Source: Bacteroidota bacterium
Lineage (GTDB): Bacteria; Bacteroidota; Rhodothermia; Rhodothermales; UBA10348
DNA length: 64,000 bases
Direction: 5' to 3'
Assembly: GCA_022567305.1 (NCBI GenBank)
Contig: JADFHF010000011.1
Location: 1 to 64,000, forward strand
How positions within the stretch are numbered: the stretch's first letter is position 1; each line of letters opens with the position of its first letter. The notes beneath the pieces were generated by a model. The model saw nothing but the letters and a program-made list of their open reading frames with translations, did no database searches and was not told the DNA's origin. Below, piece by piece: positions 22,220 through 29,603 of the stretch. The position numbers and the translations under genes were made by a program.

Positions 22220-23500
22220 TTATCGGGAACGATACCCCATCGTCACCGCGAAACCGCGTGAGTATTCGCACGCACGCGTCATCTGGTAATTAATCTGTTC
22301 TGTCACGCCTTGATAGTCGAGTTCCATGTCAAATTCCTGACGTCTTGTTGGGCAAAACGCGTAACGCCCCTCAATTCCAACGCTCAATCCCGGTCCGATA
22401 AGGAAATCAACACCTGCAATCGAGTGTATTTGGAAGGGTGTGAAGGCGCCAGCACCAACATGTGGTTGGACTTTCTTGGAAGTGCCTGTCAGCAAAAACC
22501 ACTTGGCAGATGCGCCAATAAATGCACCTGTAAAGGGAATCTGATCCAAAGACACCTGGCCGTCTGTGAAACGATATTTGACGGCAATCCTTCGTGGGCC
22601 CAGTCCAGCCTCGATTCCGAAAAAGAGAGACGGTCGACTAGGAAACGAGTAGTGGTAGGAAGCTGCCTTGACCGAGCCTTGGATTGAATTTGAGTACCGG
22701 ATCATGCTGGTGCCGCCCATTCGCTCGCTCCGAATCGCACCTGTTTTTTCCGAACGGCATCGCTCGCTACACCACGGGCGAACGATAACTCCTACCCCAA
22801 CGGCACTCAACAGGTCAAAGGTGCCGAATCGGTTGGTTTCGCGGTGATTTGAGGGCTGGGGTGGCCCCAGTGGAAGCCGCCCATCGACAGAATCATCCAT
22901 GAGTGCAACATGGGACGTCGACTCGACAAAAAATGAAAGACTTGAATTCAGAGTGTATTCAAGACCGGCGCCCAAAACGGGGCCGTGGATGTAGTGTTTG
23001 CGAGAATACAGCTCTTGATCGGCATCAAGAACAAGTGAGTCAAATATGATAACCTTGCCGAAGGTCAGATGATATCCAAAGTGTACGTACGGCGAGAGCA
23101 CTCGCCGGCCCGGCTGATACCGTAACATAAGCTGATGGGTACGGCGCTTTGTCGGGTGGTTTCGGATCTCCAGATCATCGTAGAATCGCGTTATCAACGG
23201 ATAGTCGGCAAACTGAATCCCGAGTGCCAGACTCCATGCCGGAGCAAACTGATATCCTATTTCGCCACCCGCGCTGTACGGAATCTTGTTCTCGACACCA
23301 AATGCGCGACGGTTGAAGACGACGGTGTTGTTGTCCCCCAGATAGCTCGACAGCCCCGCCTTGGCCTTTACGAAAAAGGAGTATGAATTTCGCGGAGCCT
23401 GCGAATAGGCCGGTAAAGCAATAAGGAGGACAACGATGTAGGTGGACGTCCGTTTTCTGGCTAACGTCCGGGCTATTGCCGATTCGAATCGCGAATGCAT
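22220..23500 (-). CDS. Outer-membrane beta-barrel protein, hypothetical
   Basis: A 426-residue exported protein with a signal peptide (residues 1-34, ending AYSQA) and a series of amphipathic strands typical of OmpA/OmpW-like barrels. Examples are YSAGGEIGYQFAPAWSLALG, THQLMLRYQPG, SPYVHFGYHLTFG and VGAGLEYTLN. A second barrel-like series follows residue 270 (LFFGIEAGLGPRRIAVKYRF), so it may hold two consecutive barrel or half-barrel units, or one of about 16 strands. First gene of the three-gene envelope operon. No specific transport role can be assigned. Confidence 0.65.
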   Translation of the reverse strand: MHSRFESAIARTLARKRTSTYIVVLLIALPAYSQAPRNSYSFFVKAKAGLSSYLGDNNTVVFNRRAFGVENKIPYSAGGEIGYQFAPAWSLALGIQFADYPLITRFYDDLEIRNHPTKRRTHQLMLRYQPGRRVLSPYVHFGYHLTFGKVIIFDSLVLDADQELYSRKHYIHGPVLGAGLEYTLNSSLSFFVESTSHVALMDDSVDGRLPLGPPQPSNHRETNRFGTFDLLSAVGVGVIVRPWCSERCRSEKTGAIRSERMGGTSMIRYSNSIQGSVKAASYHYSFPSRPSLFFGIEAGLGPRRIAVKYRFTDGQVSLDQIPFTGAFIGASAKWFLLTGTSKKVQPHVGAGAFTPFQIHSIAGVDFLIGPGLSVGIEGRYAFCPTRRQEFDMELDYQGVTEQINYQMTRACEYSRGFAVTMGYRSR

Positions 23501-23622
23501 AGTCGGATTTCGGTAATTTTATCCTATGACACACACGGAACGGTCACTGCGTAATGTCGCGCCTTATTCTTCGACTGGGTCGTCGAGTGTCACCGAGAAT
23601 CCGCATACAAAAAGAGTGAGGA

Positions 23623-24143
23623 ATGGCGAAAGGAAAGAAAGCAATTTATGCGGCGATCCTGGGAAATGCCCTCACTATTTCGCTTTACGATTCGACGACG
23701 CCATTCAAGAGTACGAGTCAGCCCTTGACCTGAACCCGAATTTTGCTCCTGGTCATTGGCATCTTGGGTGGGTGCTAGAGCAGGTGGGGCGCTATGATGA
23801 AGCCATCTCCCACGCCCAGCAGGCCATTGATATTTCTGAGGGAAATCTGTTGTATGTCGCATCTTTGGGGCACGCTTATGCCATCGCGGGTCGGACGGAA
23901 GAAGCGAGAGCGATACTCGATCAATTGGATAAAGAACGCGCTACCCGACATGTCTCGGCTTATCATGTTGCTGTAATTCTTGGAGCCCTCGCTGATATAG
24001 ATAAGGCCTTCGCCTGGTTGGATCGGGCCGTTGATGAGCGATCGCCTTGGATCGGATATATGGGTGTGGATCCCCGGATTGGGACCTTTCGAGAAGATTC
24101 GCGTTTAGATATGTTTTTTCAACGCGCCAATCTCGTTTTGTAG
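23623..24143 (+). pseudogene. Deletion scar: CDF transporter start fused to the tail of a TPR protein
   Basis: From ATG 23623 one frame reads MAKGKKAIYAAILGNAL, the usual beginning of cation diffusion facilitator (CDF) metal exporters, and similarity stops at about 23676. From about 23680 to 24143 a different frame reads TPR units (ALRFDDAIQEYESALDLNPN, then GRYDEAISHAQQAID) and ends RSPWIGYMGVDPRIGTFRED. That ending is characteristic of the C-termini of large kinase-TPR or adenylate-cyclase-TPR proteins. The TPR frame is open back to 23526 but without family-like residues. The simplest reading is one deletion that removed the rest of the CDF gene and the front of the TPR gene. Probably not functional. 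Confidence 0.7.
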
Positions 24144-24206
24144 GCATCATCATGGTAGATTGTCCCGACGACGAAAATCACGTCATCGAAGAAGCCGCCC
24201 AGGAGC

Positions 24207-26021
24207 ATGTCCGATAAACCCGTCAAGAAACCCAACCCGCTTCGAAAATCTGCGACTTGGCGTGAGGCCCGTGCCGTCATCTGGACCCACCGTAGGACAT
24301 TAAGGATTGGTTTCTTTTTGATGGTAATCAATCGGCTGAGTGGTTTTGTCCTCCCGCTAGGGTCAAGGTATCTGATTGATGACATTATCGGCGAAAGTCA
24401 ACCTGAGGCACTGCTCACTCTGGCGGCGGCAATAGGTGGAGCCACACTCGTTGGGGCAGTAACGACTTTTGCTCTTTCACAGGTTATCAGTATTTCCGCC
24501 CAGGGAGCCATCATGGATATGCGCCGAAGAGTCCAGGCACACGTTACTCGACTCCCGATACGGTATTTCGATCGGACGAAAACGGGGGAGCTGATCTCTC
24601 GCGTCATGACGGACGCTACGGGCATTCGAAATTTGGTCGGCACGGGTATCGTGCAGCTCGTCGGTGGCGTTTTCACTGCCGTGATCGCTATGACCCTTCT
24701 TTTCTATCTGAATTGGAAACTGACGTCCATTACTCTCGGACTTCTCTCCGTCTTTGGAGCGGGGATGGCCTTGGCTTTCAGTCGGCTTAGGCCCATTTTC
24801 AGAGAGCGAGGAGAAATCAATGCTGAGATCACAGGTAGACTTAACGAGACACTCAATGGCATCCGGATCGTCAAGGCTTATGGCGTGGAGGAACGTGAAC
24901 AAAATGTGTTCTCCGACGGCATCTCGCGTTTGTTCTTGAATGTGAAGAAATCCATCACGGGTGTATCGGCCATTTCGACGTTTGCCGGGCTCATTATCGG
25001 AGGGGTCGGCATGGTGATGATTATAGTGGGGGGGGAAGCTATTATCGAGGGCACTATGACGATGGGAGATTTCGTAATGTACATCTTCCTGATCGGGCTG
25101 TTGGCAGCTCCGATCATACAGATCGCCTCCATCGGGACGCAGGTAACCGAGGCCTTTGCCGGACTCGATCGCATCCGGGAACTGCTTGCGAATGTTACAG
25201 AGGAGGAGGAAGATGAAAAACGCGCGTCTCTCAATGGCATTACAGGCGAGCTTATATTCGACGACGTTCATTTCGCCTACGAAGAAAACGTCCCGGTTCT
25301 AAACGGCATCACATTCACTGCCCCGGCGGGTTCGACCACGGCTCTTGTCGGATCGAGTGGATCGGGTAAGAGCACGCTTGCGAATTTAGTCATGGCGTTT
25401 CACCGTCCAACATCCGGGCGTGTGCTCGTCGACGGACAGGATCTCGCGGAAGTAAAACTGAGAGATTATCGGAAATTCCTCGGTGTTGTTTTGCAGGAAA
25501 ATTTTCTTTTCGACGGGACAATTATCGAAAACATTCGATTCGCGCGACCAAATGCAACATCAGAGGATGTAGAACGAGTGAGCCGCTTGGCTCATTGTCA
25601 CGATTTCATTATGAACTTCCCGGACGGCTATGACACCGTCGTGGGCGAACGAGGCGTCAAACTCTCCGGAGGCCAGCGTCAGCGTGTGGCCATCGCCCGA
25701 GCCATTCTCGCGGATCCAAGAATTCTGATTCTAGACGAAGCCACGTCCAGCCTGGACAGTGAAAGCGAAGCCCTCATCCAGGCAGGCTTCAAGAGTCTTC
25801 GAAAAGGGAGAACGACATTCGTGATTGCTCACCGTCTCTCGACCATTCGTAGCGCAGATCAGATTCTCGTGATTGAGAAGGGGGAAATCCTCGAGAAAGG
25901 CACTCACACCTCACTGATGGCGGCCGGAGGACGGTACAAGGAGCTACATGATCACCAGTACACGTGGGAGGAGAATCTCTTCATCAACCCAGGTGAGGAT
26001 TATCTGACTACCGAATCTTAG
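24207..26021 (+). CDS. ABC exporter, fused permease-ATPase (MsbA-like)
   Basis: A 604-residue half-transporter that should work as a homodimer in the inner membrane, exporting lipids, drugs or peptides. Six membrane helices fill about residues 30-320. The nucleotide-binding domain has Walker A GSSGSGKS (K388), signature LSGGQRQRVAIARA, Walker B ILILDEATSSLD and the H-loop VIAHRLS. The general layout matches MsbA/BmrA, but the substrate cannot be told from sequence. It starts 63 bp after the TPR scar and converges with the LVIVD protein gene. Confidence 0.93.
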   Translation: MSDKPVKKPNPLRKSATWREARAVIWTHRRTLRIGFFLMVINRLSGFVLPLGSRYLIDDIIGESQPEALLTLAAAIGGATLVGAVTTFALSQVISISAQGAIMDMRRRVQAHVTRLPIRYFDRTKTGELISRVMTDATGIRNLVGTGIVQLVGGVFTAVIAMTLLFYLNWKLTSITLGLLSVFGAGMALAFSRLRPIFRERGEINAEITGRLNETLNGIRIVKAYGVEEREQNVFSDGISRLFLNVKKSITGVSAISTFAGLIIGGVGMVMIIVGGEAIIEGTMTMGDFVMYIFLIGLLAAPIIQIASIGTQVTEAFAGLDRIRELLANVTEEEEDEKRASLNGITGELIFDDVHFAYEENVPVLNGITFTAPAGSTTALVGSSGSGKSTLANLVMAFHRPTSGRVLVDGQDLAEVKLRDYRKFLGVVLQENFLFDGTIIENIRFARPNATSEDVERVSRLAHCHDFIMNFPDGYDTVVGERGVKLSGGQRQRVAIARAILADPRILILDEATSSLDSESEALIQAGFKSLRKGRTTFVIAHRLSTIRSADQILVIEKGEILEKGTHTSLMAAGGRYKELHDHQYTWEENLFINPGEDYLTTES

Positions 26022-29201: not shown

Positions 29202-29603
29202 TCAAACGTTGAGAGACATGAATGCCCCGCCCCCGTCGATTCTTCCCGAACCGTTCAATCGCCTACACTCATGGGCCCGTGCCCAGCCCTGGTTGGGCCG
29301 ATTTACGCTGATGAACTCCATGGCGATGAAGGGGCTCGGCTCGGTGCCGTGAGGAGCATCAGAAGGCACCGCCTCATCAATCTCAAAAACACTGGCGATA
29401 TTCGGGTGGTGAAGCTGGGCTGCGGCCTTCGCCTCGCGGTAGAATCGCGTCCTGTCGTCTTCGCTCGCCAAGGCTGCCGATGGTAGCACTTTAATTGCTA
29501 CAGTGCGGTCGAGCTTCGTGTCCACGGCCTTATAGACGATCCCCATGCCGCCGCGGCCCAGTTCTTCGAGGATCTTGTAGTGGGATAAGTTCTTGCCGAC
29601 CAT
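29202..29603 (-). pseudogene. N-terminal remnant of a Ser/Thr protein kinase
   Basis: The first ~95 residues are the start of a Hanks-type kinase: KNLSHYKILEELGRGGMG glycine loop, VAIKVLPSAAL with the ATP-anchoring lysine, FYREAKAAAQLHHPNIASVF (helix C), and FIAMEF at the hinge. After about 29310 the similarity ends and the rest (SVNRPNQGWARAHEC...) is not kinase-like. Catalytic loop HRD, DFG, membrane helix and the usual C-terminal TPR/propeller region are all missing, so the gene is dead. In this lineage such kinases often end in TPRs with the same tail as the scar at 23.7-24.1 kb, so the two fragments belong to one family. Confidence 0.75.

Follow-up and report, generated by a model that had tools for sequence, protein, structure and literature searches.

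The region 23501–24143 of the window, by which we mean the whole 64,000-nucleotide stretch that was analysed, holds one long open reading frame of 205 aa. This raises the question of whether the frame is a gene in its own right or runs across a point at which two broken genes have been joined. We favour the second answer, with a probability of about 0.7, namely that the locus is a pseudogene scar in which one illegitimate rearrangement fused a CDF (cation efflux) gene, at codon 15–17, with the C-terminal portion of a TPR gene in the same orientation. Our reasons are the break in CDF homology, the alignment of the TPR tail that abuts it, the switch of frame in codon usage and a CDF body that was not found in the assembly. 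The first 49 codons of the 205-aa frame are the leader and the CDF start read out of frame, and because of this the frame is, judged from its sequence, no normal gene.

Table 1 Features around the junction, and partial kinase matches elsewhere in the genome.
Feature	Position	Strand	Basis
Outer-membrane beta-barrel gene, divergent, upstream of the leader	22220–23500	−	Pfam OMP_b-brl
Leader, apparently non-coding	23501–23622	+	Plus-strand codon scores negative to ~23580; ORF list
CDF (cation efflux) gene start, first 15–17 codons	23623–23673	+	Homologous N-termini; reversed-peptide control
Junction interval	23668–23676	+	End of CDF similarity, onset of TPR similarity
TPR protein, C-terminal 156 codons and stop	23673–24143	+	Homology, Pfam, codon usage
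Mechanical 205-aa ORF	23526–24143	+	ORF list; alignment; codon usage
Partial kinase match L145	G000 C107:26971
Partial kinase match L146	C106:52808
Partial kinase match L142	C29:1092
Partial kinase match L141	C94:12336
Partial kinase match L143	C74:69559		Pfam match alone

For the upstream piece, the CDF frame opens with the ATG at 23623, reads MAKGKKAIYAAILGNAL and then TISLYDSTTPFKSTSQPLT, and closes at the TGA at 23731–23733, giving a frame of 36 aa. The 20-aa peptide from its start was searched against 394 genomes of the phylum and matched at E ≤ 1 in 18 of them, the own genome included. Among the 17 non-self matches, 15 were the N-termini of open CDF-like frames of 303–566 aa; of the other two, L110 did not pass the motif filter, and L115, a 29-aa frame, is not a CDF start. 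The best four matches all came from one other genus (G038, G048, G057 and G360), with 81% identity over residues 1–16 and E values of 0.0068–0.0096 per genome. The reversed peptide matched in 5 of the same 394 genomes with a best E of 0.39, and since these matches were weak and scattered, a chance similarity of the short CDF start is unlikely. One of the 15 homologous starts (L099) belongs to a CDF by both Pfam (PF01545, E 4.7e-34) and NCBIfam (TIGR01297, E 3.5e-42). A search of plasmids with the short CDF peptide returned no match.

Compared with the 15 N-termini, K5, K6, I8, Y9, A10, A11, G14 and N15 matched in all rows, K3 and G4 in none, A16 in 7% and L17 in 67%, and residues 18–27 agreed in no row at all. 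Isolated agreement reappeared at S32 (93%) and L35 (47%), which we take as chance. As column agreement collapses after residue 15–17, the CDF part is placed by this alignment as ending between 23667 and 23673. The scar therefore shares with CDF transporters (PF01545/TIGR01297) the start position and the first 15–17 residues, from which alone the gene is identified, whereas everything from residue 18 onward is missing, and Pfam found no family, including the PF01545 membrane domain, in the 36-aa frame.

The rest of the CDF gene was not recovered in the assembly either. A search of the own genome (an assembly 95.59% complete) with a full-length CDF of the subfamily gave nothing at E ≤ 1e-5, and the single PF01545 match of the genome, on contig C32, is 25% identical to the subfamily CDF. 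When the CDF was compared by tblastn with the window and 21 own-genome loci, this distant C32 protein was found (25%, E 1.7e-9), and all else had E values above 0.3. Copies of the subfamily, 58–100% identical, were present in 4 of the 60 genomes searched (the own genome among the 60); one of the four is the source of the query, and none belongs to the family of the window. The subfamily (loci L116–L119) is patchy within the order, which suggests transfer or repeated loss.

For the downstream piece, we compared the tail with a set of 19 frames, each 400 aa or longer and bearing a kinase-like motif, drawn from 17 own-genome loci and one G047 locus. Residues 50–203 of the 205-aa ORF, starting at base 23673, aligned ungapped with residues 607–760 of a 761-aa frame of the own genome (C96; 31% identity, E 1.5e-25), and likewise ungapped, with 34% identity, with residues 696–849 of an 860-aa frame from elsewhere in the order (G047), nearly at that frame's end. 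Both frames carry a kinase domain, so that the last 154 residues of the tail align without gaps to two Ser/Thr kinase-TPR proteins. A third own-genome frame (L149, 972 aa) was 36% identical to residues 115–200, in its middle and not at its end. In a wider comparison, 21 non-self homologous frames aligned at E ≤ 1e-5. Their alignments began within ORF residues 47–51 in 10 of 21 cases (residue 50 in eight, 47 in one and 51 in one), at residues 55–58 in another 10 and at residue 78 in one.

Pfam assigned the 205-aa ORF to TPR families (TPR_2, E 2.1e-13) and found no kinase domain in it. The best TPR_11 and TPR_16 stretches enter their profiles at positions 9 and 10, on which ground the first TPR unit seems to be cut. 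At the other end, the NF047558 model (TPR end-of-group C-terminus) scored 30.3 bits, slightly below its cut-off of 32, and the tail looks open down to the apparent natural end of the protein. Relative to kinase-TPR and cyclase-TPR proteins with an NF047558 end, the scar lacks the signalling domain and the upstream TPR units.

The original prediction had traced the tail to a kinase-TPR gene. This origin is plausible in view of the own-genome homologue, but the C-terminal end of this type is not exclusive to kinase proteins, and the prediction stands only in part. The closest tail homologue found in genome_contigs (L169, 40%) comes from a Verrucomicrobia MAG and is a TPR frame of 727 aa that lacks a kinase but has a guanylate-cyclase match barely above the Pfam cut-off (22.6 vs 21.9 bits); closer homologues there came from two loci among 80 pattern matches, both in Verrucomicrobia MAGs, at 40–42%. 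In two genomes of the window's family, short closed TPR frames end in a similar way and bear no kinase motif; these, L027 (335 aa) and L028 (293 aa, or ~233 aa from the first Met), may be stand-alone TPR proteins or remnants. As a tail of this kind is also the end of cyclase-TPR proteins and of shorter TPR proteins, any of these three types, kinase-TPR included, may have been the parent.

The two lines of similarity meet almost at a point, since CDF similarity ends at 23667–23673 and TPR similarity starts at about 23673 in another frame. Codon usage was scored in bits per codon with 28 long ORFs from the window as the training set, whose own scores (the training genes being scored on themselves) were 0.04–0.32. 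The CDF frame scored +0.52 across its 17 codons, a small sample, and +0.03 beyond them, while the TPR frame scored −0.19 ahead of the junction and +0.24 past it, inside the training range. The codon signal thus swaps frame where the homology swaps. That a CDF start meets a TPR tail in another frame, as originally proposed, is borne out by the 15 homologous CDF starts, the ungapped tail alignments and this frame switch, and homology and codon usage agree that two unrelated gene pieces join within a few bases.

Four observations count against a scar. The tail runs for 156 codons without a stop and has gene-like codon usage, as a working gene would show; relatives possess short TPR proteins with a similar end (L027, L028); CDF and kinase/TPR genes were not neighbours in any of the five CDF loci compared; and the CDF start is recognised from 15–17 residues. 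The first two would fit translation of the tail into a small TPR protein of its own, from the ATG at 23526 or a later start, with the leftover promoter of the CDF gene, and the complete C-terminus fits as well. Even so, we consider such a working gene very improbable: codon scores ahead of the junction are lower than background, the first TPR unit is apparently cut, and all 21 non-self homologues have at least 98 in-frame residues ahead of the aligned part, compared with 49–57 in the 205-aa ORF. It is extremely improbable that the join has become a new gene in use, with a metal-exporter promoter controlling a TPR domain that has lost its signalling domain; if it had, the TPR domain could compete for partners of the cell's many kinase-TPR proteins.

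The join could also be an artefact of assembly, with the two genes intact at separate places in the cell. The draft assembly is of a 3.76-Mb genome in 115 contigs, in whose gaps the CDF body might fall at 95.59% completeness, and the join did not recur elsewhere in the own assembly or, as the exact 29-base junction, in viral_contigs (0 matches). Yet the junction sits 23.6 kb into a contig of 89 kb, a search of 22900–24800 gave no direct repeat of at least 14 nt (and one overlapping inverted pair, at 23475–23496), and the 901 bases around the junction matched no second place in the assembly as DNA at E ≤ 0.001, all of which makes a chimera unlikely. A real rearrangement other than a simple deletion, in which an inversion, translocation or insertion put the TPR tail beside the CDF start, is improbable. 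It would suit the lack of neighbouring genes at the five CDF loci and the N-terminal kinase fragment on the opposite strand ~5.6 kb away (29603 to ~29313), but the CDF body was not found anywhere in the assembly, an outcome expected of a deletion and not of a pure inversion, and with most of the kinase domain missing from the fragment, inversion alone would rebuild no gene. We considered an inversion involving this fragment near 29.3–29.6 kb and set it aside, because it would place the CDF body at the other breakpoint, and the searches did not recover that body.

For the pseudogene scar, a single deletion would be the simplest form of the rearrangement, and would imply that the CDF and TPR genes were formerly neighbours. 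It would have removed CDF residues 18 to ~316 (~0.9 kb) together with the upstream part of the TPR gene, ~1.8–2.1 kb if the parent was kinase-TPR-like or ~0.4 kb if it was short and L027-like. With sizes taken from homologues, the total would come to ~2.7–3.0 kb or ~1.3 kb, respectively, plus the space between the genes. The scar would be young, given a tail that has kept an open frame and gene-like codon usage, and neither half would be expected to work.

Deletion had been named as the cause in the original prediction, and it remains the simplest account, in keeping with a CDF body that was not found in the assembly; former adjacency of the two genes drew no support from relatives. The original prediction proposed alignment with the closest genomes to find the intact CDF and kinase-TPR genes. 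In the five CDF loci compared (four of 19 kb and one of 3.2 kb) the two genes did not occur together, and no relative of the kinase-type homologue, the TPR tail, the beta-barrel or the ABC protein was found at E ≤ 1e-4. The 27 genomes of the family include none of the same genus. Upstream of the ABC transporter, the genes in relatives were variable and uninformative among the matches listed.

Bacterial gene remnants are truncated pieces, and annotation may report their open stretches as genes. The warning that the long TPR frame could mislead annotation was well founded, as software that calls ORFs would list a TPR protein of 205 aa here, with 49 leading residues that are the leader and another gene's start read out of frame. 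Among broken bacterial genes the scar is ordinary in kind. Its closest known counterparts are bacterial gene remnants and fused pseudogenes such as those of Rickettsia (PMC2374718), from which it differs in that two unrelated pieces abut at one point, within a 3.76-Mb draft genome.

The tail may belong with other kinase-family remnants in the genome, and the scar would then add another piece to this debris. PF00069 gave 25 rows in the own genome, of which 17 cover at least 211 of the 263 positions. The remaining 8, which fall at 7 places, are partial (Table 1), one of them (C111) being weak and lying within a 1003-aa frame of another kind. Among the translations listed, a good N-terminus that ends abruptly is seen in the kinase pieces of the window, C107, C106 and C29, and those in C94 and C107 contain stops. 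The fragment in the window (29313–29603, minus strand) starts at the ATG at 29603, matches Pkinase positions 1–67 by Pfam and breaks off past PFIAMEF, its end being set by eye at ~29313; it is a remnant of a Ser/Thr kinase gene. Also by eye, the pieces of C107, C106 and the window share the start MVGK, and those of C107 and the window end at a nearly identical residue.
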